Part shown: positions 8,921 to 61,854 of the stretch, piece after piece
Layout of the letters: each line of letters opens with the position of its first letter
How positions within the stretch are numbered: position 1 is the stretch's first letter
From: Arenibacter sp. 6A1
GTDB lineage: Bacteria; Bacteroidota; Bacteroidia; Flavobacteriales; Flavobacteriaceae
Assembly: GCF_012272855.1 (NCBI RefSeq)
Contig: NZ_JAAXCQ010000004.1
Coordinates: forward strand, 124,001 to 188,000
DNA length: 64,000 nucleotides
Reading direction: 5' to 3'
Position numbers and translations under genes: made by a program
The notes under the pieces: model-generated
Databases searched by the model: none
Seen by the model: only the letters and a program-made list of their open reading frames with translations
What the model was told of the DNA's origin: nothing

Positions 8921-8994
8921 GCCGATGTAGCTCAGCTGGCTAGAGCAGCTGATTTGTAATCAGCAGGTCGTGGGTTCGAGTCCCTCTATCGGCT
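8921..8994 (+). tRNA. tRNA-Thr (anticodon TGT), copy 1
   Basis: A 74-base cloverleaf. The acceptor stem is GCCGATG pairing with TATCGGC, the D-arm contains AGCTCAGCTGG, the anticodon stem is GCTGA/TCAGC around the loop TTTGTAA (anticodon TGT), and the T-arm contains GGTTCGAGTCC. CCA is not encoded. It is identical to the copy at 9461-9534 and is the first gene of a duplicated Thr-Tyr-Gly block. Confidence 0.95.
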
Positions 8995-9091
8995 CTAAAA
9001 AAACAAAAGTATATTATAGTTTTTGTTTAGTTTATTGAATTGGGTTGAAAAGCGACCGGGACTAGAAGTTTATCCCGAGCGTAGTCGAGGG

Positions 9092-9110
9092 GAGTCCCTC
9101 TATCCGCTCA
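9092..9110 (+). repeat. Duplicated tRNA-Thr 3' end (scar)
   Basis: GAGTCCCTCTATCCGCTCA repeats the 3' end of tRNA-Thr with one change (C for G). It is followed by the same spacer that follows the second tRNA-Thr. Together with the real 3' end at 8976-8994 it brackets about 114 extra bases missing from the second block. Confidence 0.7.
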
Positions 9111-9162
9111 AAGTATTGGAAATACCAATAGGTTTTTCAAGGTTCTTTTAAATATTAGTGTT

Positions 9163-9244
<82 letters not shown>

Positions 9245-9333
9245 CTAAAGACCGAAAGGTTTTGGTATGAAAATACCGAAAAGTAATTTTTGAAATATTG
9301 GAAATATGTTTTAGGTTTGCCTAAAATTAAATT

Positions 9334-9406
9334 GCGGGAGTAGCTCAGTTGGTAGAGCGTCAGCCTTCCAAGCTGAATGTCGCCGGTTCGAACCCGGTCT
9401 CCCGCT
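9334..9406 (+). tRNA. tRNA-Gly (anticodon TCC), copy 1
   Basis: A 73-base cloverleaf. The acceptor stem is GCGGGAG/CTCCCGC with discriminator T. The stem TCAGC/GCTGA encloses CTTCCAA (anticodon TCC), and the T-arm contains GGTTCGAACCC. Repeated at 9761-9833. Confidence 0.95.
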
Positions 9407-9460
9407 CTATTTTCTATTGCTTTTTCCTTTACGGAAAATGTGTTAGTTGATAAAAATTGT

Positions 9461-9534
9461 GCCGATGTAGCTCAGCTGGCTAGAGCAGCTGATTTGTAAT
9501 CAGCAGGTCGTGGGTTCGAGTCCCTCTATCGGCT
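9461..9534 (+). tRNA. tRNA-Thr (anticodon TGT), copy 2
   Basis: Same sequence as 8921-8994, with anticodon TGT and the same cloverleaf pairing. It lies 54 bases before the second tRNA-Tyr; in the first block that gap is 168 bases. Confidence 0.95.
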
Positions 9535-9588
9535 CAAAATATTGGAAATACCGAAAGGTTTTTCAAGGTTCTTTTAAATATTAGTGTT

Positions 9589-9670
<82 letters not shown>

Positions 9671-9760
9671 CTAAAGACCGAAACGTCTTGGTATGAAAAA
9701 TACCTTAAAATAATGTTTGAAATATTGGAAATATGTTTTAGGTTTGCCTAAAATTAAATT

Positions 9761-9833
9761 GCGGGAGTAGCTCAGTTGGTAGAGCGTCAGCCTTCCAAGC
9801 TGAATGTCGCCGGTTCGAACCCGGTCTCCCGCT
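9761..9833 (+). tRNA. tRNA-Gly (anticodon TCC), copy 2
   Basis: Repeat of 9334-9406 with the same cloverleaf and anticodon TCC. It is the last gene of the tRNA cluster. No clear terminator follows. Confidence 0.95.
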
Positions 9834-10043
9834 CTATTTTTTCTAATACTTTTCCTTTCCAAAATACAGCCCCTTTATTTAGTTTTAGTCCTTATTAGAT
9901 GGTTATTATGTGCCTATTCTGAAGGATATCTTAGATTGTTACATCAAATCTAAATTTTAAAGTTGTTTTTTACACTATCGCTGTTTACTCATAACCGTAC
10001 CAACATAAACCATTGTTCCATTTCCACATAGTTAATTGATTCC

Positions 10044-49842: not shown

Positions 49843-50283
49843 TTATATTTTTAACATCCCTTCTAAAACTCCTTGGCATACCAACTGCCCATTTCCATTA
49901 TGCATTTTAACCAGACATTTTAATTTATGAAACCTAAAATACACAAGACTTGAGCTTACGGTAACTGTTTCCTTTGGATACACCGGCAACAAAAAATCCA
50001 TTTGCGAACTGCTTAAGGCTATTTGGGGGTTTTTAAAATCGGCCTGTTCTTTCTTTAGCAGGTAAATACCCAAACAGACCAACCCAATCTGCGCGCAACA
50101 CTCCGTTAAAATAACTCCTGGGGTTACCGGATATTCTTTAAAGTGTCCTCGGTAAAAATCTTCCTCTAACTTAAAGGTATAGGAACCTGTAACCCCATCT
50201 TCATTAACCGATGCTAAGTCATTTACAAACAAGAAGGGCTCCTTATAAGGAAGTAGGTCCAAAATTTCTTTATATGTATTCAT
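49843..50283 (-). CDS. FabZ-like 3-hydroxyacyl-ACP dehydratase
   Basis: 146 residues, a hot-dog fold. The catalytic His47 is in RGHFKEYPVTPG and Glu61 in LTECCAQ, both placed as in FabZ, so dehydratase activity is expected. It removes water from a 3-hydroxyacyl-ACP. It is the fourth gene of the PKS operon and would act between the ketosynthase and the next elongation round. Gaps of 67 and 94 bases to its neighbours are larger than in the rest of the operon. Confidence 0.88.
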   Translation of the reverse strand: MNTYKEILDLLPYKEPFLFVNDLASVNEDGVTGSYTFKLEEDFYRGHFKEYPVTPGVILTECCAQIGLVCLGIYLLKKEQADFKNPQIALSSSQMDFLLPVYPKETVTVSSSLVYFRFHKLKCLVKMHNGNGQLVCQGVLEGMLKI

Positions 50284-50350
50284 ACCTCATATTAATTAAT
50301 CCTTTAAAGCATGCTTTTCCTAATGGTGAAAATTATCTTCCTAAACATGT

Positions 50351-51406
50351 CTACCACTCCAGCAACACCCGCTGTGCCGAAAACCCCGGACCAAAACTCA
50401 ACACCAGCCCTTGCTCTCCCTCAGAAATATTCTTTTCCAAATAACGTTCTAAAACATAAAGAACGGTTGCGCTGCTCATATTTCCATAAAGGCGAAGGGT
50501 CTCTCTGGTCTCATCAATATTTTTACCTAGTTTCCCAAATAATTCTTCTACGGTTTGTACAATTTTTTTTCCTCCTGGATGAAAAATCAAATGATTGACC
50601 TTGTCTATATCACTGCCGTATTTATTTAAAAAAGGATGTATAATTGCTGGAAAATGTTCGGATATCGTTTCGGGTACCGCAGGATCCAAGATCATTTTCA
50701 AACCTGTATTGGCCAGCTCAAAACCCATTAATCGGGTCGTATTTTCGAAGTGATACATTTCGCCCCCCACTATACTAGGACCTATGGCCCCTAGCTCAGA
50801 GGACAATAAAACGCAGGCCGCCCCATCGCCAAAAATAGCGGCACTGACCATATTGGCCATGGAATAATCATTTAACTGAAAGGTAGCGGTTGGACTTTCG
50901 ACTGCCACAATAGCGGCTCTTTTACCCGGATTGGATTTTAGGAAATTATAGGCATAGATAAGCCCGGAAACACCTGCAGCGCATCCCATTTCTGTAACGG
51001 GCAAGCGAACCACATCTTGGCGCATCCCTAAATCATCAATTAAATAGGCATCAAGAGATGGGATCATTATCCCCGTACAACTGACCGTAATAATAAAATC
51101 TAAACTTTTTGCTGACCAATCGCTTTTATAAAGTGCTTTTTCTAATACTTTTTTCCCCAGTTTACGGACTTCACGACTATAAATATCATTTTTCTCTTGA
51201 AAAGATGTCGCCTTAAAAACCTCTTCCGGCGCCATAATACTGTAGCGTTTGTCTACAGCAGCACCTTCAAATATTTTTAAAACCTTCCGCTGAAATCGTC
51301 CCTCCTGCTCCCTTAACCACCATTTTACCAATGGCAGAATATCTTTTGTTTCCCTACTATAGATGGGCAATTCCTTTGTAACCGTGACAATTTTTACCTT
51401 ATTCAT
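50351..51406 (-). CDS. Type III polyketide synthase
   Basis: 351 residues. The chalcone synthase-type triad is complete: Cys142 in EMGCAAGVSG, His276 in IFHPGGKK and Asn309 in LYGNMSSATV. The CoA-tunnel motif SCTGIMIPSLDAYL and the C-terminal SFGPGFSAQ are in place. It condenses an acyl starter with malonyl-CoA units and cyclises the chain, usually to an alkylresorcinol, alkylpyrone or phloroglucinol. The gene overlaps the methyltransferase gene by 8 bases. The starter could come from the ACP, ketosynthase and dehydratase encoded next to it. The exact product cannot be told. Confidence 0.94.
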   Translation of the reverse strand: MNKVKIVTVTKELPIYSRETKDILPLVKWWLREQEGRFQRKVLKIFEGAAVDKRYSIMAPEEVFKATSFQEKNDIYSREVRKLGKKVLEKALYKSDWSAKSLDFIITVSCTGIMIPSLDAYLIDDLGMRQDVVRLPVTEMGCAAGVSGLIYAYNFLKSNPGKRAAIVAVESPTATFQLNDYSMANMVSAAIFGDGAACVLLSSELGAIGPSIVGGEMYHFENTTRLMGFELANTGLKMILDPAVPETISEHFPAIIHPFLNKYGSDIDKVNHLIFHPGGKKIVQTVEELFGKLGKNIDETRETLRLYGNMSSATVLYVLERYLEKNISEGEQGLVLSFGPGFSAQRVLLEW

Positions 51407-52124
51407 ACCCTTCAGCTGTTTTTGTCCGTAAGACCCATAAATAACGAAACGCCCACTTCCACTTTATGGTATGCAGGACGTTTGGAATATTTTGTGAAAA
51501 AGCCATTAAATCCGATAGCACAAAGCCTCTTTTTATGGAAACCAAACCGTCGGACTTTCCAACCTTGGTTTTGATAAAAATTAAACTAAAGATCCAAAAT
51601 AACCCATAAGCCAGCTTACTCCTTTGCAGATCATTAATAATCACTCCTAAACGGGCTACTTTAACGAATTGATCTAGAAACAAGGGTATTTCTTGGGAAC
51701 TAAAATGATGCATGGTAAGGGTCGATAATACAATATCACAGTCGATTTCGTGAGCTTCTAAACTTAAGATATCCCTATTCTGATAGCTGATATTGGGAAA
51801 ACTTGTCGACATAGCTTTGGCTATTTCAATACCATTTTCACTAAGATCGATACCTATTAAATTTAATTTAAAAGGCTCATTTTTAAAATACCGGACCACC
51901 TTTCTCAACATAGTACCATCTCCACACCCCATATCTATAATCGTATAACTGTTTTTCGGATTTTCATGGATGATTTTTTTAATCGCTTTAAGAGTAATCG
52001 TATATCCGTTCAGGATAACATTGACGCGATTAATGTCGAACAATATTTCTTGTAACGAACCGAGATCTACAGAAGGATCGTCCATCATTTCTATTTCGGA
52101 ACTACGGGTGTCAAAATTCATCAA
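51399..52124 (-). CDS. SAM-dependent methyltransferase of the PKS cluster
   Basis: 241 residues, class I fold: motif I IDMGCGDGTML, the acidic motif II end GIDLSENGI and the post-I region DIVLSTLTMHHF. It likely methylates the phenolic or pyrone product (on O or C). Two neighbours overlap it: the FAD oxidoreductase by 4 bases (ATGA junction) and the type III PKS by 8, so translation is probably coupled. A C-terminal hydrophobic stretch (AYGLFWIFSLIFIK) suggests membrane contact, which would suit a lipid substrate. Confidence 0.88.
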   Translation of the reverse strand: MMNFDTRSSEIEMMDDPSVDLGSLQEILFDINRVNVILNGYTITLKAIKKIIHENPKNSYTIIDMGCGDGTMLRKVVRYFKNEPFKLNLIGIDLSENGIEIAKAMSTSFPNISYQNRDILSLEAHEIDCDIVLSTLTMHHFSSQEIPLFLDQFVKVARLGVIINDLQRSKLAYGLFWIFSLIFIKTKVGKSDGLVSIKRGFVLSDLMAFSQNIPNVLHTIKWKWAFRYLWVLRTKTAEGYE

Positions 52125-53242
52125 AATCGAATAGTTTTACCATGAGTATTGCCAATAAGTCTTTTTACCATAGAAGGCGATTTCGATGCCAATTGAACAA
52201 CCACTTCCAAGCTTTTTTCATGTAGCAATAAGGACTGTAAATTCCTTCCCAACCACAATCTTCTGCCAAAGGTATTTCTCCATTGCTTTATATAGTCCTT
52301 TTCCATCCGATTGCGGTTATAGGTCTTTTCCCTAAAAAAACAATCTATTGTTTCTGCAGCGATTTTAGCGCTATGAATGGCCATAGCCATGCCATTTCCA
52401 CAAAGTGGGTGTATTAAGCCAGCTGTATCGCCGCACATAAGAATATGATTTTCTACAGTACTTTTCTTTTCAAAGCCCACTTGCCCAATAGTTTCAGGAG
52501 CTGGAAATAACTGTTGAGCCTCTTCTAAAAACTGCCCTAACAAGGGATTCTTGGAAACCACATTCTTATTAAAATGAGCTATACTTTTCTCTTTTTTAAA
52601 ACTGTCATAAGAAACCAAATAACAAAAATTAACCGCTCCAGACTCTGTTTTAGACAATCCTCCATACCCCCCCCTAAAATTGTGCAGGGCTACTGTATTA
52701 TCTGGGAAACCGTCTAATTTATAATGGGCCTTTACCGCAAGCCAGGGCGATTTCCCTCCTGTAAAACCACGTTGTAACTGCTTATCCAAGGCACTTCTTT
52801 TTCCATAAGCTCCAATGGCTACTTTGCCGTGATAGACTGTTCCTTTATCGGTCTTTATAATAAAAGTGTCCCTCTGAAATATTACGGAAACAACACTACC
52901 GAACACAAACCTTACTCCAACTTCCCTAGCTTTTAGATATAGTCTGTTATCTAAGGTATAGCGACTTATCCCCACACCCCCCATAGCAAGATCTGCCTGT
53001 AAGGTCCGTCCTTTTATGGTGCTTAACAACAAGTTATTTACTGGAACGGCATCGAGCAGGGAAATCCCTAAATAGTTTAGATAAGGTACAACTTCCTTAG
53101 ACAGGTACTCCCCACACACCTTATGATGTGGATAGGCTAGTTTCTCAAACACCAAAACACTATAGCCTTTTTTTTGTAAATCCAGGGCCGAGGTCAATCC
53201 GGCCAATCCACCTCCCACAATGAGTACATCAAATAAGATCAC
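52121..53242 (-). CDS. FAD-dependent oxidoreductase, geranylgeranyl-reductase-like
   Basis: 373 residues. The N-terminal Rossmann motif VGGGLAGLTSALDL binds FAD, and the second flavin motif is MCGDTAGLIHPLCGNGMAMA. Overall layout is that of the geranylgeranyl reductase / UbiH-like hydroxylase group. It heads the operon and could hydroxylate the ring to a quinone precursor, or reduce a double bond. By analogy with bacterial phenolic lipid clusters that pair a type III PKS with a methyltransferase and a flavin hydroxylase, ring hydroxylation is the preferred reading. Confidence 0.85.
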   Translation of the reverse strand: MILFDVLIVGGGLAGLTSALDLQKKGYSVLVFEKLAYPHHKVCGEYLSKEVVPYLNYLGISLLDAVPVNNLLLSTIKGRTLQADLAMGGVGISRYTLDNRLYLKAREVGVRFVFGSVVSVIFQRDTFIIKTDKGTVYHGKVAIGAYGKRSALDKQLQRGFTGGKSPWLAVKAHYKLDGFPDNTVALHNFRGGYGGLSKTESGAVNFCYLVSYDSFKKEKSIAHFNKNVVSKNPLLGQFLEEAQQLFPAPETIGQVGFEKKSTVENHILMCGDTAGLIHPLCGNGMAMAIHSAKIAAETIDCFFREKTYNRNRMEKDYIKQWRNTFGRRLWLGRNLQSLLLHEKSLEVVVQLASKSPSMVKRLIGNTHGKTIRF

Positions 53243-54817: not shown

Positions 54818-55195
54818 CTATATGTTTTTTAATATAAGGTTATACACTTCTTCTTTTAGCGGTCTTAGGGACTCGTAAAAGCTTTCATATATATTTCGAT
54901 ATTCCTCGTGCTTGTTCAAATAATAAATATCACATTCGATATCTTCACATTCGTGCACATTGATTAGCGAATTTTTATATCTAAAAAAAACACCCAGACG
55001 TAATTTGTTTTCCAAGGCAATATCTTGCAGCCTTTCTTTTAAATCATGCTGGTCTTTAAATTTAGATACTATGTCTTTTAAAATCAAAACCTCCTCCCCG
55101 GTATGGACTAAATGATTAATCCAGTTATTTAACTCCAGGGCATCTTTTTTTGCTATTAGTCTATCATCGGAATCATGTTCATAAAATACATTCAT
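54818..55195 (-). CDS. Unknown protein of the sigma-54 operon
   Basis: 125 residues, soluble, acidic, largely helical, with two Cys close together (HECEDIECDIYYL). No family recognised. It lies four bases after the Gre-like gene in the same direction and is the last gene before the intrinsic terminator, so it belongs to the glutamate dehydrogenase operon. It could regulate or stabilise that enzyme, but nothing in its sequence shows it. Confidence 0.7.
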   Translation of the reverse strand: MNVFYEHDSDDRLIAKKDALELNNWINHLVHTGEEVLILKDIVSKFKDQHDLKERLQDIALENKLRLGVFFRYKNSLINVHECEDIECDIYYLNKHEEYRNIYESFYESLRPLKEEVYNLILKNI

Positions 55196-55199
55196 AGTT

Positions 55200-55619
55200 T
55201 TACATTAAGATATCAGAATTAATAGAACTTGGCTGTTGCACAACTTCCGTGACTTTAAGGGTCTGCTCTCCATTTCTAAATTCCCAAATAATATCATCGC
55301 CTTTAGCATAGCCAATAACCGCAGCCCCCATAGGAGTGAGTATAGAAATTTTATTATTTTTAAAATCTCCTTCTGAAGGAATCACCAATTGAAATTGTTT
55401 AGACCAACCGTTCGCAGCTTCAATTGTTACGGCCGAATTAAATCTAATTACATCTTCGGGCATTTCTTCCTCGCTATAAACGATTGCCGACTTTAATTCG
55501 TCAGTTAATTTCTGAATAGAATTTTTATATGTGTTGTCTGTATAAAACCCTGAAACGTTAACCAAACGTTTTAAAAGAACAAATTCTTTCTTTTCCAATA
55601 CCAAATGTCCGTACTTCAT
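55200..55619 (-). CDS. GreA/Rnk-like transcription factor
   Basis: 139 residues. The C-terminal part (about 85-130) is the GreA/GreB C-terminal FKBP-like domain: ISILTPMGAAVIGYAKGDDIIW is its signature. The N-terminal region is too short and lacks the acidic coiled-coil tip of GreA, so it resembles Rnk, which binds RNA polymerase without cleavage stimulation. It sits between glutamate dehydrogenase and an unknown protein in a sigma-54-type operon; how it would act there is unknown. Confidence 0.82.
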   Translation of the reverse strand: MKYGHLVLEKKEFVLLKRLVNVSGFYTDNTYKNSIQKLTDELKSAIVYSEEEMPEDVIRFNSAVTIEAANGWSKQFQLVIPSEGDFKNNKISILTPMGAAVIGYAKGDDIIWEFRNGEQTLKVTEVVQQPSSINSDILM

Positions 55620-55642
55620 AATACACTAATGTTTAAAATTAT

Positions 55643-56926
55643 TTATGGAAATATCCCTCTTTGCACATAGGCCTTTTCAATTCTTTCGATAGCAATCACA
55701 TAGGCCGAGGTTCTCATGTCCCCATTTCTTTCTTCTGCCTTTACATAAACCCTATCAAAAATTTCTTTCATTTTCTTGTCAAGTTTGGCCAAAACTTCAT
55801 CCAACTGCCAAAGTTCCCCGTTACGGTTTTGAAGCCATTCAAAATAACTTCCGATCACCCCTCCAGAATTACACAAAATATCCGGAATTATTCCGACCCC
55901 ATTATTGAGTAATATTTCCTCAGCTTCAACATCTGTTGGGCCATTGGCGCCTTCCGCTATTAAAAAGGCCTTTATTTTATCGGCATTTTCAGCGGTGATC
56001 TGGTTTCCTAATGCGGCAGGAATACAGATATCACAATCCAATCCAAAAAAGTCTTCTGTTGGCAAAGCAACGGAGTTAGGAAAATCGACGATACTTCCTT
56101 TATTCCCCTGCATATAATCGTTTAACTGAGCGACTGCTATTCCTTGGTGATTGGCAATTGTTCCAAAAGCATCCTGTACCCCTACTAATTTTGCTCCCTC
56201 GAGCTCTAAAAAATGAGATGTCCAAAACCCTACGTTCCCGAATCCCTGAACGATGAATCGTTTGTTTTTTAAATCTATTTTCTTCTTTTCTGCCCAGAAT
56301 TTTATATTCAAGAACACCCCATAGCCGGTAGCGCGGTCTCTTCCTTCAGAACCTCCGGACCCCAGTGGTTTTCCTGTGACCACGTGCTGGTTCTTAGAAC
56401 GCTCGGCAGGCGATTTAGTAGACATATAGGTATCTACGATCCATGCCATGGTCTGTGAGTTTGTATTCACATCCGGTGCCGGAATATCGTGCTCAGGACC
56501 AATATTATCTCCTAATGCATAGGTAAATCTTCTTGTAATCCTTTCTAATTCCGTGATAGAATATTTGCTGGGGTCTATCTGAATCCCACCTTTGGCGCCT
56601 CCGTACGGCAAACCTACCAACGACGTTTTCCAAGTCATCCACATAGCAAGTGCCTTGGCCGCATCGATATCTACCGTAGGGTGATACCGCAACCCTCCTT
56701 TATATGGACCCAATGCGTTGTTGTGTTGTACACGGTAGCCCGTGAACACTTCTACATCGCCATTATCCATTTTTACAGGAAAATGAATGATAAGTTCATT
56801 ATTGGTTATACTTAATATTTTTTTAATATTTGGATTAAGATTTATTATGTCTGCAGCATGATTAAATTGACTCATCACGTTTTCCAACATGCCCTGTTTC
56901 AATTCTTTTTTTGTTTTTGTTATCAT
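55643..56926 (-). CDS. Glutamate dehydrogenase (Glu/Leu/Phe/Val dehydrogenase family)
   Basis: 427 residues. The substrate-binding and catalytic blocks are PYKGGLRYHPTVD and LPYGGAKGGIQIDP (catalytic Lys in the latter), with the Rossmann motif VQGFGNVGFWTS for NAD(P). Size and blocks fit the hexameric small GDH type, which reversibly deaminates glutamate to 2-oxoglutarate and ammonium. The gene is preceded by the 55-residue Cys protein, 10 bases away, and the sigma-54 promoter at 57134-57148; it is the core metabolic gene of that operon. Cofactor choice (NAD or NADP) is not resolved. Confidence 0.93.
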   Translation of the reverse strand: MITKTKKELKQGMLENVMSQFNHAADIINLNPNIKKILSITNNELIIHFPVKMDNGDVEVFTGYRVQHNNALGPYKGGLRYHPTVDIDAAKALAMWMTWKTSLVGLPYGGAKGGIQIDPSKYSITELERITRRFTYALGDNIGPEHDIPAPDVNTNSQTMAWIVDTYMSTKSPAERSKNQHVVTGKPLGSGGSEGRDRATGYGVFLNIKFWAEKKKIDLKNKRFIVQGFGNVGFWTSHFLELEGAKLVGVQDAFGTIANHQGIAVAQLNDYMQGNKGSIVDFPNSVALPTEDFFGLDCDICIPAALGNQITAENADKIKAFLIAEGANGPTDVEAEEILLNNGVGIIPDILCNSGGVIGSYFEWLQNRNGELWQLDEVLAKLDKKMKEIFDRVYVKAEERNGDMRTSAYVIAIERIEKAYVQRGIFP

Positions 56927-56936
56927 ATTCTTGCTT

Positions 56937-57104
56937 TTAATAAACTCTAAGATTTGTTTTCATTTTAAAAGAATGGCTAGCAGGCAAAACCTTTGAGTCT
57001 CCCGGTTCAAATTCGTTACAGGACCAAATATTATTTTTGTTCGTGGTTAAAACGCAATTCGCGAAATGCTCACAACTGATACATAAACTAGTACTATTCC
57101 TCAT
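56937..57104 (-). CDS. 55-residue cysteine-rich protein heading the sigma-54 operon
   Basis: A short frame with ATG at 57104 and TAA at 56937, read without interruption: 55 residues with Cys8, Cys11, Cys17 and Cys29 (SLCISCEHFANCV and IWSCNEFEP), giving the spacing C-x2-C-x5-C-x11-C, suited to a zinc or Fe-S site. Its start lies about 19 bases after the predicted transcription start of the -24/-12 promoter, and its stop is 10 bases before glutamate dehydrogenase, so it is the first gene of that operon. It is too short for most gene finders. Function unknown; it may be a small regulator or sensor. Confidence 0.65.
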   Translation of the reverse strand: MRNSTSLCISCEHFANCVLTTNKNNIWSCNEFEPGDSKVLPASHSFKMKTNLRVY

Positions 57105-57133
57105 AATAGTTTTTTTTTAGTACAAACATAAAG

Positions 57134-57148
57134 GCAACTACAGTGCCA
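57134..57148 (-). promoter_or_regulatory. Sigma-54 promoter (-24/-12)
   Basis: On the minus strand TGGCAC-N5-TTGC, with GG and GC exactly ten bases apart, is a full match to the sigma-54 consensus. The expected transcription start is near 57123, 19 bases before the ATG of the small Cys protein. Confidence 0.85.
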
Positions 57149-57228
57149 ATTAAGCCTCACTAATCCTATTGAAAGTATATCTTGCTTATTATTAGTTGGT
57201 TATAAAAACAAAGACGTTTTTAGACCAC

Positions 57229-57272
57229 CCCTCATGTGGGGAGTATTTCCCCATGTGAGGGGTAATTCCCCA
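57229..57272. promoter_or_regulatory. Tandem palindromes, candidate activator sites
   Basis: CCCCTCATGTGGGGA (57229-57243) and TCCCCATGTGAGGGG (57249-57263) form a 35-bp dyad with inner and outer arms; a further GGGGTAATTCCCC follows to 57272. They also read as two direct copies of ATGTG(A)GGG(A)GTA-TTCCCC. Centre about 123 bases upstream of the predicted start, the usual distance for sigma-54 enhancers. It also follows the stop of the response regulator gene at 57289. Confidence 0.75.
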
Positions 57273-57288
57273 TATTAAACTATGAAAG

Positions 57289-58623
57289 TTATTGTATTTT
57301 TTGCCGAAGAGTTTTGCGGTCTATTTGCAGAATTTCTGCCGCTTGCGATTTATTGTTATTGGTAGCTTCGAGTACTTTAAGAATATATTTTTTTTCGATC
57401 TCTCTTAAGGGAAGAAGGCCTTCTTCAGGAAATTCTATCTTAAACTTTAAGTTATCGGGCAAATCGGCTACCTCAATTTGCTTGTCGCACATAATTACGG
57501 CTCTTTGGATAACATTTTCGAGCTCCCGTATATTTCCTGGCCAATGGTGTCTTTTTAATAGCTCCATGGCCTCGGGGGTAATCCCCAACAATCGGTCTTT
57601 ATATTCTATCCCATATTTGAGCAAGAATTTATCGACTAACAAAGGTATATCGGATTTTCTATCCCTAAGAGGCGGTACATCAATTTCGACTACTGTCAAC
57701 CTATAATAAAGATCTTCTCTAAAAAGCTCCTTTTTAACTTGGGCACTTAGGTCGCTATTAGTCGCTGCAATAACCCTTACCTCTATTTTCTCCGCCTTTT
57801 GAGAGCCTACCTTGGTCACCTCTTTTTCTTGCAGTACCCGTAAAAGTTTGGATTGTACCGATAGTGAGGCGTTGCCTATTTCATCTAAGAAAAGAGTTCC
57901 CTTATTTGCGGCCTGAAAAAACCCGTTCCTATCTTCATTCGCCCCGGTAAAAGCTCCTTTGGCGTAACCAAATAGTTCGGCCTCTAAAAGATTTTCGGGA
58001 ATAGCTCCGCAGTTGACGGCTATAAAAGGTGCTCTGGAGTATTTTCCCATATAATGTACAGAACGGGCAACCAGCTCCTTCCCCGTACCACTTTCACCCT
58101 TTATAAGTACCGTGGCCTTATTGTCCTTGACCCGATCAATGATATCGGTAACCTTTTTTATTTCCGCAGATTGCCCGATGAGCTCTCCGTAGGCAAGCTT
58201 CTTTTCTTTTGGCGAATTTGAGAGGAGCTTGACATTTTCTTTCTCCTTGACAGCCCCGGCAAAGGAATTTAAGACGGCATTCTTGAGTTCGTCCTTTGTA
58301 AAAGGTTTCACCAAATAATCTAACACTCCGGCCTTAATCACATGTAGTGCATCATTTATTGATGGATAACCAGTAACCACAAGTTTTGGCAATGTCGGAT
58401 AATGCTCTGATACATATTTTACCAACTGAAAGCCATCTACCTCCGGCATTTTTAGATCGGTTATCAATAAATCTATCTGGGTGTCCTTTAAAATAACTAA
58501 GGCTTCTTTTACCGATACGGCCTTATAAGCATGATAATTAAAGGATTGTAAGTGCCTATGAATCAGCTCTAAAATATTCACGTCATCATCTACAATTAAG
58601 ATATTCTCTTTATTAAAGCCCAT
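57289..58623 (-). CDS. NtrC-like sigma-54-dependent response regulator
   Basis: 444 residues from the Met at 58623. Receiver domain with the phospho-Asp in LLITDLKMPEVDGF, then an AAA+ domain with Walker A GESGTGKE and the sigma-54-contacting loop GAFTGA (in GYAKGAFTGANED), sensor motifs around GTLFLDEIGNA, and a C-terminal Fis-type helix-turn-helix (NNNKSQAAEILQIDRKTLRQKI). The start codon lies just after the kinase stop at 58628. It should bind enhancer sites such as 57229-57272 and activate RNA polymerase-sigma-54 at 57134-57148. Confidence 0.94.
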   Translation of the reverse strand: MGFNKENILIVDDDVNILELIHRHLQSFNYHAYKAVSVKEALVILKDTQIDLLITDLKMPEVDGFQLVKYVSEHYPTLPKLVVTGYPSINDALHVIKAGVLDYLVKPFTKDELKNAVLNSFAGAVKEKENVKLLSNSPKEKKLAYGELIGQSAEIKKVTDIIDRVKDNKATVLIKGESGTGKELVARSVHYMGKYSRAPFIAVNCGAIPENLLEAELFGYAKGAFTGANEDRNGFFQAANKGTLFLDEIGNASLSVQSKLLRVLQEKEVTKVGSQKAEKIEVRVIAATNSDLSAQVKKELFREDLYYRLTVVEIDVPPLRDRKSDIPLLVDKFLLKYGIEYKDRLLGITPEAMELLKRHHWPGNIRELENVIQRAVIMCDKQIEVADLPDNLKFKIEFPEEGLLPLREIEKKYILKVLEATNNNKSQAAEILQIDRKTLRQKIQ

Positions 58624-58627
58624 GCGC

Positions 58628-59719
58628 CTATTGTTTGGGGAAATTAAGGGCAAAGATAGTACCTTTAGGCTTGTTAGCAGTATATTTTATAGTGCCTTTA
58701 TGACTTTTCACTATGCCATGAACCACGCTTAAACCCAATCCCGAGCCCTCTCCAACAGGTTTTGTGCTATAAAAGGGCTCAAAAATCTTATCCTTGGTTT
58801 TTGGATTTATCCCTGGCCCCTGATCTTTGATGTATATAACAACACTATCCTCTTTATTTGTTACCTGTATTTCTATTTTACTTCTTACCGGAGAAAAGTA
58901 AATCGCATTGAGCACAAGATTAAAAATCACTTGGGTCAACTGAATAGAATCTACCCGTAAATAAATATCATCGGCATTAAACTGCAACTCTGGAACTACC
59001 TTGTTTTTCTTAAAAATAGGATCCATTAAGTTGATTGCATGACTTATAATGGGATTGATATTGACCAAGCTCATTTGCTGCGGCATTTCACAGGCAAAAA
59101 ACATCAGCTTTTTGACCACTTCCCTAGAAAAAATGGTACTGTTTATAATTTTATCGAGATCTTTACTAGCTTGTGAATCGTCTTCCAACCTGCTTTTTAA
59201 AAGTTCGGAAAAACCTAGAATATTGGCTAATGGGGTATTTAATTCATGGGCGATCCCTGCGGTAATTTCACCAAGAATCCCAAGCCTATCGGCTCTTTCC
59301 ATTTTTTTTCTAATGATATCCTCATTGTCTTTAATCTGTTTTCGCTCTAACAGGTTTCCCACTTCCATGCACACATTCTTGAGAAGCTTGCTTTCTTCCT
59401 CTAAAAATGCCGAGGCCTGGTATTTTTGAGCGGGATAGGAAACTTTTATACGCCCTATTTTCTTATTAAAAACACGAATGCTCGATTTCAGGGAAACGAC
59501 CTCTTCTGCAATTGGGGCCGTAGATAGGCTGTATTGATCCGTCACCATGATCACTTGGGCGTCGTTGGTAAAACGCCAAGCCTTTTTAAGACATTGCAAT
59601 ATTCCTTTCAGAGCATCTTCAATTTGGTTGTAATCACAATTCACGATGATGGAGGTTACCTCGTATAAACAAGTGAGCTCCTTAATTCTTTCATTCAGTT
59701 TTTCCTCTGCCGTAATCAT
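58628..59719 (-). CDS. NtrB-like sensor histidine kinase
   Basis: 363 residues from the Met at 59719. A GAF-like N-terminal region (about 20-140) without membrane helices, then the H-box AGIAHELNTPLANILGF, the N-box VIFNLVLNAIYFSP, G1 IKDQGPGIN, F-box FEPFYSTKP and G2 GSGLGLSVV: a complete kinase. It probably senses a cytosolic signal (nitrogen or amino-acid level) and phosphorylates the NtrC-like partner encoded next. The gap to the E1 gene upstream is about 35 bases, so it is likely cotranscribed with it. Confidence 0.93.
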   Translation of the reverse strand: MITAEEKLNERIKELTCLYEVTSIIVNCDYNQIEDALKGILQCLKKAWRFTNDAQVIMVTDQYSLSTAPIAEEVVSLKSSIRVFNKKIGRIKVSYPAQKYQASAFLEEESKLLKNVCMEVGNLLERKQIKDNEDIIRKKMERADRLGILGEITAGIAHELNTPLANILGFSELLKSRLEDDSQASKDLDKIINSTIFSREVVKKLMFFACEMPQQMSLVNINPIISHAINLMDPIFKKNKVVPELQFNADDIYLRVDSIQLTQVIFNLVLNAIYFSPVRSKIEIQVTNKEDSVVIYIKDQGPGINPKTKDKIFEPFYSTKPVGEGSGLGLSVVHGIVKSHKGTIKYTANKPKGTIFALNFPKQ

Positions 59720-59754: not shown

Positions 59755-61731
59755 TTAATAATCCAATAATTTTAAAAGCTCCTTTGTGAAGCGTTCTTTG
59801 GGTAAATAATTCTCTTCCAACGATTTTGCAAATGGTATTGGTGTTTGTAAACTTGCTACCCTTTTTACCGGGGCATCCAGGTACTCAAAACAATTCTCCA
59901 TGACCAAGGCCGAAATATCGCTGGCCATACCCCCAAAAATGCTGTCTTCTTGCAAGATAATAAGTTTTCCTGTCTTTTTCACGGAAGAATAAATGGCTTT
60001 TGTGTCTAATGGCTGTAAGCTTCTCAGATCCAACACATCGGCACTCACACCAGGATTCTTCTCTAAGGCTTCCAAAACCCAATGCACCCCAAGACCATAA
60101 GAGACTATGGTAATAGCCTCTCCTTCTTTTAATAAAGCTGCTTTCCCAAAAGGAAGGGAGTAATAATCGGCAGGCACCTCTTGGTAACTACTGCGGTACA
60201 AGCCTTTGTGCTCAAAGAACAACACTGGATTAGGATCGTTAATAGCAGTGATCAACATACCTTTAGCGTCATAGGGAAAGGCCGGATACACTACTTTTAA
60301 GCCCGGAGTTTTGGTAAACCACGCCTCATTGGTCTGGGAATGAAACGGTCCGGCCCCCACCCCTCCTCCACAAGGCATACGGATAACCACATCGGCATTC
60401 TCTCCCCAACGATAATGTACTTTGGCCAAGTAATTAACAATAGGGTTAAACCCGGTACTTACAAAATCTGCAAATTGCATTTCTACTACGGCCTTCATTC
60501 CATTTATAGAAAGCCCCATTGCCAAAGAAACCACGGCCGACTCACAAATGGGGGTGTTGCGGACCCGGTCTTTTCCAAAGGCATCCACAAATCCCTCCGT
60601 GATTTTAAATACACCTCCGTAATCTGCAATGTCTTGCCCCATAATGACCAACTGTTGGTGCTTTTCCATGGATTGCCGTAACCCCTGGGATATTGCATCG
60701 ACAAACCGAATTTTGTTCCTTAGCCCGGCAGGCTTGTGCTCTTGGTAATCGTATTCTTTAAAAACATCGTTGAGCTCGGTTTCCTCGTTAAAAACAACTT
60801 CTTCTTCGCCCAAGGCTTCTTTCAGCCTTTCCTCTATGTCGCCAGACACCTGAGTCATGAAGGTCTCCTTTAATTGGGGCGTTAAGATTTTTTCTTCAAA
60901 TAAGTATTGTTCATAATTCAACAAAGGGTCCTTCTTTCCCCATTCCTCCAAAAGCTGCTGTGGCACATATTTGGTACCACTTGCCTCCTCATGCCCGCGC
61001 ATCCTAAAAGTTTTAAACTCTATAAGGACTGGACGGGGGTTTTTCCGCATTTCTTGGCAAATCTGTGTTACTTTATTAAACACCTCTATAATATTATTGC
61101 CATCTATTATATGCGATTCTACTCCGTAACCAACGCCCTTATCGGCCAAGTTTTCACATCTGTACTGCTCATGGGTTGGGGTAGATAGGCCATAGCTATT
61201 GTTTTCTATACAAAATAGCACTGGCAGATCCCAAACGGCGGCCAAATTAAGGGCTTCGTGAAAATCGCCTTCACTGGTACCTCCTTCTCCGGTAAAAACC
61301 GCGGTTACGGCTTTCTTTTTTTGTAGCAAATTTGCTAGGGCTATTCCGTCGGCTACCCCAAGTTGGGGGCCCAAATGAGATATCATCCCTACTATTTTGT
61401 GTTCCTTGGCCCCAAAATGAAAGCTGCGGTCCCTGCCCTTGGTATACCCGCTTTTTTTGCCCTGCCATTGTGCAAAAAGTCGCTTCAATGGAACGTTCCT
61501 TGTGGTAAAAACCCCGAGGTTACGATGCATGGGCAAGATATAATCGTCATCGGACAAAGCAGCTGTAACACCCACAGAAATAGCCTCTTGCCCAATACCA
61601 CTGAACCATTTGGATATTCTTCCCTGACGCAAAAGAATTAACATTTTTTCCTCTATAAGACGTGGCTTTAATAGCTGCTGATATAGTTCCAACTGCGTTG
61701 CTTTATCTAAAGTATGACCCTTGTAGTGCAT
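59755..61731 (-). CDS. 2-oxoacid dehydrogenase E1, alpha and beta fused
   Basis: 659 residues from the Met at 61731. The first half is E1 alpha with the thiamine diphosphate motif GEGGTSEGDFHEALNLAAVW closing in ENNSYGLS; the second half is E1 beta (QDIADYGGVFKITEGF and PCGGGVGAGPFHSQ). Fused E1 of this type is usual in Bacteroidota and decarboxylates pyruvate-like or branched-chain 2-oxoacids, feeding acyl groups to E2. Leucine, valine and isoleucine breakdown is the likely use given the glutamate dehydrogenase operon nearby. It heads the operon with the kinase and activator. Confidence 0.92.
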   Translation of the reverse strand: MHYKGHTLDKATQLELYQQLLKPRLIEEKMLILLRQGRISKWFSGIGQEAISVGVTAALSDDDYILPMHRNLGVFTTRNVPLKRLFAQWQGKKSGYTKGRDRSFHFGAKEHKIVGMISHLGPQLGVADGIALANLLQKKKAVTAVFTGEGGTSEGDFHEALNLAAVWDLPVLFCIENNSYGLSTPTHEQYRCENLADKGVGYGVESHIIDGNNIIEVFNKVTQICQEMRKNPRPVLIEFKTFRMRGHEEASGTKYVPQQLLEEWGKKDPLLNYEQYLFEEKILTPQLKETFMTQVSGDIEERLKEALGEEEVVFNEETELNDVFKEYDYQEHKPAGLRNKIRFVDAISQGLRQSMEKHQQLVIMGQDIADYGGVFKITEGFVDAFGKDRVRNTPICESAVVSLAMGLSINGMKAVVEMQFADFVSTGFNPIVNYLAKVHYRWGENADVVIRMPCGGGVGAGPFHSQTNEAWFTKTPGLKVVYPAFPYDAKGMLITAINDPNPVLFFEHKGLYRSSYQEVPADYYSLPFGKAALLKEGEAITIVSYGLGVHWVLEALEKNPGVSADVLDLRSLQPLDTKAIYSSVKKTGKLIILQEDSIFGGMASDISALVMENCFEYLDAPVKRVASLQTPIPFAKSLEENYLPKERFTKELLKLLDY

Positions 61732-61854
61732 GTTATGGTATTTGGTTAAGGAAGTATAAATGTAACGAAAAGACAAAAACAATGTCTAGCAGAATTTAAT
61801 AAGAAGGTTGCTTTAATATTTCTTAACTTTGATATATCCTAAAAAACAGCAATA

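Follow-up and report, generated by a model that had tools for sequence, protein, structure and literature searches.

The question raised by this locus is whether a two-component pair with a sigma-54 activator controls the glutamate dehydrogenase operon lying next to it. The window, i.e., the whole stretch of 64,000 nucleotides of Arenibacter sp. 6A1 DNA that was analyzed, contains on its minus strand a kinase gene, an activator gene, a gap of 184 bp, and then four closely spaced genes. The original prediction placed a sigma-54 promoter and enhancer-like palindromes in this gap, and proposed that the pair at 57289-59719 directly controls the operon at 54818-57104. Comparative footprinting, rearranged loci, co-occurrence of the genes, and genomes carrying the dehydrogenase only all supported this proposal, and the activator pair very probably controls the neighboring operon through the sigma-54 promoter and the upstream dyads.

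The sensor histidine kinase (58628-59719, minus strand) contains HisKA and HATPase_c domains, and its phospho-acceptor H158, along with Cys 17 and Cys 210, was invariant in the 42 kinases compared. A Pfam search gave no match before HisKA. In the structure model the N-terminal domain had a mixed helix-strand fold, no membrane segment was apparent, and the kinase is apparently cytosolic; the matches in the fold search were mostly to the kinase core. The activator (57289-58623, minus strand) contains a receiver (PF00072), an AAA+ domain with GAFTGA (PF00158, 235 bits), and a Fis-type HTH (PF02954, 52.2 bits against a cut-off of 22), all above the Pfam cut-offs. The GAFTGA loop had been described as intact, and both the translation and the alignment bore this out; together with the Walker A motif GESGTGKE, it was conserved among activator sequences, and the receiver D53 was invariant in 23 of them. 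Since the kinase histidine and the receiver aspartate are both in place and the genes are adjacent, we infer from domains and adjacency that the kinase phosphorylates the activator receiver. The genome has one rpoN gene. Upstream of the kinase lies an ORF (59755-61782) that resembles a dehydrogenase E1 component, as named by reading its translation, and it keeps this place in 17 same-genus loci, the exception being the paralogous L175.

The first gene of the operon encodes a 55-aa cysteine mini-protein (56937-57104, minus strand) with the pattern C-x2-C-x5-C-x11-C, whose four cysteines were invariant in 28 homologues. It is followed on the same strand by the glutamate dehydrogenase (55643-56926; PF02812 and PF00208), which matched solved NAD-specific enzymes such as 3k92 from Bacillus, and scored 264.7 bits with the NCBIfam model for the NADP-specific enzyme (PRK09414), below its cut-off of 536. 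Next comes a Rnk/GreA-like protein (55200-55619, minus strand; PF01272), possibly one that binds RNA polymerase, with 93.6 bits for the NCBIfam nucleoside diphosphate kinase regulator, below the cut-off of 109. The last gene (54818-55195, minus strand) encodes a 125-aa protein predicted to be a three-helix bundle (model pLDDT 90.8), for which no Pfam family reached its cut-off and the fold search against the PDB had nothing at E<=0.001; its family has a nearly invariant ECxxxxC. The mini-protein ORF was decayed in three of the 18 same-genus loci (L169, L172, and L177), where the dehydrogenase and the leader length were retained.

The sigma-54 promoter predicted within the gap was found as TGGCAC-N5-TTGC at 57134-57148 on the minus strand (TGGCACTGTAGTTGC), the only exact match within the window, and was assigned by motif match and conservation. 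It has GG-N10-GC at -24/-12, is conserved before the gene, and belongs to a genome with rpoN. The predicted transcription start is near 57122, about 18 bases from the ATG of the cysteine mini-protein, and the distance from the promoter TTGC to this ATG is 29 bases, not the 19 first given. The tandem palindromes had been placed at 57229-57272, and only part of this stretch held up: two dyads of the GGGKAA type were conserved in position in relatives, whereas the outer arm at 57229-57236 was not conserved across the genus. The dyads, both on the minus strand, are D1 at 57258-57272 (TGGGGAATTACCCCT), with its center about 143 bp before the predicted start, and D2 at 57237-57253 (TGGGGAAATACTCCCCA), with its center about 123 bp before it. 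They are thus enhancer-like in place, about 100-150 bp upstream at a conserved distance.

Motif counting was considered as proof and dropped, because the promoter and single-dyad motifs did not exceed their control counts genome-wide. The exact promoter motif had four matches in the genome and the reversed pattern three; TGGYAY-N5-TTGC had 34 against 36 for its control, and in the window two one-mismatch matches were found against 2.65 expected. A looser single-dyad pattern gave 161 places against 214 in the control, i.e., no enrichment, and the tandem-dyad pattern was present at a single place in the genome (two overlapping matches), with one match for the reversed control. A second dyad-promoter pair in the same genome was seen neither at the 31 of 34 TGGYAY-N5-TTGC sites inspected nor at 14 other dyads inspected among the 161 places. 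With the motif counts of promoter and dyads at chance level, it is conservation that carries the argument.

At E<=1e-100, 23 of 60 relatives had the activator; within the family, a cut-off of E<=1e-140 gave it in 82 of 299 genomes, which represent 64 of 203 genera. The locus set was composed of 100 fetched stretches plus the window, giving 101 loci from 65 genera; G259 and a 42% paralogue in G011 were left out. A contig scan with generic AAA+ peptides yielded 80 activators of other kinds, with at most 45% identity (L061-L140). The kinase preceded the activator in all 101 loci, and the families encoded within 7.5 kb downstream were the Rnk-like protein (91 loci), the dehydrogenase (83), the 125-aa protein (79), the cysteine protein (68), a universal stress protein (26), and a small secreted protein (20). 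As these loci share ancestry, the counts that follow are not independent events.

When the 450 bp after the activator stop were scanned with GG and GC required, a near-perfect -24/-12 element (9 or 10 of 10 positions) was present in 70 of the 101 loci, and Markov shuffles gave an expectation of 0.96 per 101. Inspection of 28 of the 31 loci scoring below 9/10 showed TTGT or TTGA as the -12 element at a fitting place in 22. L177, from the same genus, has TTGA. Weaker elements were seen in L195 and L263, and L192, L194, L196, and L260 have none after the activator stop because the operon is displaced or inverted. By genus, 61 of 65 had a promoter score of at least 15.5, a figure calculated without a null. 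Between activator and operon, conservation across the 18 same-genus loci was highest for the 15-mer at exactly 57134-57148; next among those not overlapping it came 57247-57261 inside the dyads, tied with a 15-mer of the small ORF.

This conservation also bears on the idea that the operon depends, in full or in part, on a housekeeping promoter. In the window, TATGTTTG lies just past the -12 element, 18 bases after the start of -24, and fits the flavobacterial -7 box TAnnTTTG, as given in PMC9723704. The box was found in three of the 101 loci, whereas no block is better conserved than the -24/-12 element, and we regard a housekeeping promoter as distinctly unlikely to account for the operon.

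An earlier dyad score reached its threshold in all 101 loci and also in 95.8 of 101 shuffled ones; being unselective, it gave way to counts of GGG-N7-9-CCC. Within 170 nt before the chosen promoter, GGG-N7-CCC, GGG-N8-CCC, and GGG-N9-CCC occurred 31, 69, and 57 times, against about 2.2 expected for each, overlapping matches in G-runs being included. At least one exact dyad was present in 57 of the 101 loci (shuffle mean 3.9, maximum 11) and in 36 of the 65 genera, and all 157 exact matches were centered at -121 to -92 from the -24 edge. When up to one mismatch was allowed and the center was kept at 92-121 bp upstream, 91 loci had a dyad (shuffle mean 6.9, maximum 13) and the other ten of the 101 had none. 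For L192, L194, L196, and L260 the promoters were placed by hand, and the small spread of the dyad-promoter distance was set aside since it was computed after selection by position. That these elements are chance sequence without function would fit the missing genome-wide enrichment of the promoter and single-dyad motifs; against it stand the fixed-position conservation in 101 loci and the unlinked copies of the same architecture described below, and its probability is close to negligible.

The rearranged loci separated the operon from the activator gene. L260 has the operon in inverted orientation with respect to the activator, extra DNA lies between the two in L192, L194, and L196, the dehydrogenase is 3.7 kb from the activator in L342, and in L317 (G028) it is on a different contig. 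In these six loci the dyads were found about 95-99 bp before a -24/-12 element, ahead of the cysteine-protein gene and the dehydrogenase, with -12 variants in L196 (TTGG), L260 and L317 (TTGT), and L342 (TTGA). In L226, promoters precede both the small secreted protein and the cysteine protein, and the dyads of the latter promoter are imperfect. Two loci speak against the pattern: in L210 the dyad is poor and lies about 127 bp from the promoter, and in L318 (G233) the activator is present and the unlinked dehydrogenase has neither dyads nor promoter element. The computation shows that the elements are there, that their geometry is fixed, and that they are linked to the operon and not to the activator stop codon.

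The dyads might instead form a transcription terminator, or an RNA hairpin, closing the kinase-activator operon: in the window they start 17 bases past the activator stop codon, and as RNA the stretch has a stable fold (-36.2 kcal/mol, z -4.97). The terminator scan found no terminator-like site. Moreover, one would expect a terminator to keep its place by the activator stop codon, and the dyads do not, since in the six loci above they precede the operon, away from this codon, and remain together with the promoter whether the operon has been inverted, displaced, or unlinked. An unlinked secreted-protein gene has them in front as well. A terminator or hairpin is, therefore, highly unlikely.

Control through the sigma-54 promoter and the dyads could also involve another protein, with the promoter being sigma-54 dependent and the dyads bound by a different regulator or activator. 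The genome does encode further proteins of the same class (52 first-look candidates when the activator was the query, 28 of them scored, only one at E<=1e-100). Across the 299 family genomes, however, activator and dehydrogenase occurred together in 69, the activator only in 13, the dehydrogenase only in six, and neither in 211 (Fisher p 8e-47, uncorrected for kinship); in other terms, 13 of the 82 activator genomes were without the dehydrogenase. This dehydrogenase was found, at E<=1e-60, in none of 27 genomes chosen for absence of the activator. In the six dehydrogenase-only genomes, GGG-N7-9-CCC was absent from the 899 nt upstream of the gene in every case, and the best -24/-12 scores ranged from 13 to 15.5 of 18, in no case accompanied by a dyad. 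The activator HTH residues, like the dyads, are largely invariant. We consider binding of the dyads by another regulator unlikely, and infer that the adjacent activator binds these predicted sites and that the operon is probably its main target.

In an order-wide sample the activator was present at E<=1e-125 in 23 of 296 genomes, of which five belong to a second family. Of three loci taken from that family, L343 retains the dyads, the promoter (TTGA), the cysteine protein, and the dehydrogenase, L342 does so at a distance, and L344 ends at the contig end, with no promoter in the 300 bp present; L187 retains them as well. L345-L347, from one large genus, have a promoter-like element and no dehydrogenase within the stretch.

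The same architecture was found in trans. A search of the genus for homologues of the small secreted protein returned 22 matches, spread over 15 of 18 genomes, and 18 loci were examined. A perfect TGGCAY-N5-TTGC together with dyads preceded the gene in seven of these (L320-L325 and L334, from six genomes), all away from the activator gene, with the dyads centered 96.5-98 and/or 115.5-117 bp upstream. The other 11 loci were without this promoter, including that of the homologue (36% identity) in the Arenibacter sp. 6A1 genome. The small secreted-protein gene is, by this comparison, likely a second regulon member; as all the genomes concerned carry the activator, the search itself is no test of activator dependence. 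In some relatives the promoter precedes other genes, for Rnk-like, small secreted, ApbE, DUF4266, and DUF3570 proteins or for a four-helix-bundle sensor-like protein, the last an assignment below its Pfam cut-off. In L188, L251, L254, and L256, the 0-3.4 kb past the activator hold small secreted protein, ApbE, DUF4266, and DUF3570 genes in place of the dehydrogenase operon.

Sigma-54 activators of the NtrC family bind dyads as phosphorylated dimers, oligomerize, and remodel sigma-54 polymerase about 100 bp away through the GAFTGA loop. In the mechanism we propose, the cytosolic-looking kinase would phosphorylate the receiver of the NtrC-type activator, whose dimers would bind the two dyads of the GGGKAA type, centered about 123 and 143 bp before the start. 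By DNA looping, the bound activator could then contact sigma-54 polymerase at TGGCAC-N5-TTGC, and its GAFTGA loop would turn on the operon for the four-cysteine mini-protein, glutamate dehydrogenase, Rnk-like protein, and three-helix protein.

A circuit of comparable logic is known in Bacillus subtilis, where, according to PMC4348106 and PMC3162934, the sigma-54-dependent activator RocR controls, with SigL, the glutamate dehydrogenase gene rocG through a -24/-12 promoter and an enhancer, which by the title of a paper cited there is located downstream of rocG; RocR responds to arginine metabolites (PMC4348106). A survey names glutamate dehydrogenase as a main sigma-54 target in Bacillota (PMC12316311). 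In the predicted circuit described here, the promoter architecture before the glutamate dehydrogenase operon fits this type. It differs in having a kinase-receiver pair, with a receiver domain in the activator, and upstream tandem dyads, whereas RocR is not known to be a phospho-receiver protein. As in NtrB-NtrC, the sigma-54 activator appears to be part of a two-component system, and paired dyads lie upstream of the -24/-12 promoter; unlike in that system, the target here would be the dehydrogenase operon. In the fold search the kinase core matched ZraS best (9jfj, about 30% identity), and ZraR (1ojl) was among the closest solved activators; ZraS has a periplasmic sensor, and in contrast none was seen in this kinase. 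The activator scored below the cut-offs of the NCBIfam equivalogs NtrC (TIGR01818, 390.7 against 558.6 bits), ZraR (379.2 against 760), AtoC (397.9 against 714), and NtrX (311.4 against 600), and is therefore NtrC-like rather than NtrC. The best reading is that of a dedicated NtrC-type two-component sigma-54 circuit, apparently parallel to RocR-SigL-rocG but with upstream enhancers.

Sigma-54 circuits of Bacteroidota had been called little described, and this needs some qualification. In Flavobacterium psychrophilum, a sigma-54 promoter class (motif SM4) has been mapped and one of its promoters mutagenised, so that a -24/-12 promoter in a flavobacterium has a precedent; the selection table for SM4 contains chaperone, envelope, and gliding genes, glutamate dehydrogenase does not appear in the main text, and the map assigns no activator or enhancer there (PMC9723704). 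The circuit proposed here would offer activator, sites, promoter, and targets within the same phylum. Our literature search of open-licence papers found no description of it.

A broader reading is that this is a two-component sigma-54 regulon in which paired GGGKAA-type dyads at a fixed distance from -24/-12 couple the dehydrogenase and Rnk-like genes to secreted-protein and ApbE/DUF3570 genes, placing glutamate catabolism and an envelope or redox response under one cytosolic sensor, a solution independent of RocR-SigL. We give this about an even chance. Apart from this reading, the comparison turns a motif sighting into a defined candidate regulon, for which an activator, a consensus for the sites, their geometry, the promoter, and two conserved targets can be named. 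Sites and promoter move as a unit away from the activator gene, and once the assignment of activator to sites is settled, the motif could trace the regulon in other species. Because Rnk-like, universal-stress, small secreted, and ApbE-type genes accompany the circuit in relatives, its physiology may, as a tentative suggestion, concern energy, redox, or stress at least as much as nitrogen control; our confidence in this physiological meaning is far below that in the control relation.

Elsewhere in the window, a tRNA Thr-Tyr-Gly cluster is present twice in tandem at 8921-9834. At 49843-53242, genes resembling a type III polyketide synthase, a methyltransferase, an oxidoreductase, and a dehydratase, as read from their translations, form what is possibly a pigment or lipid cluster.
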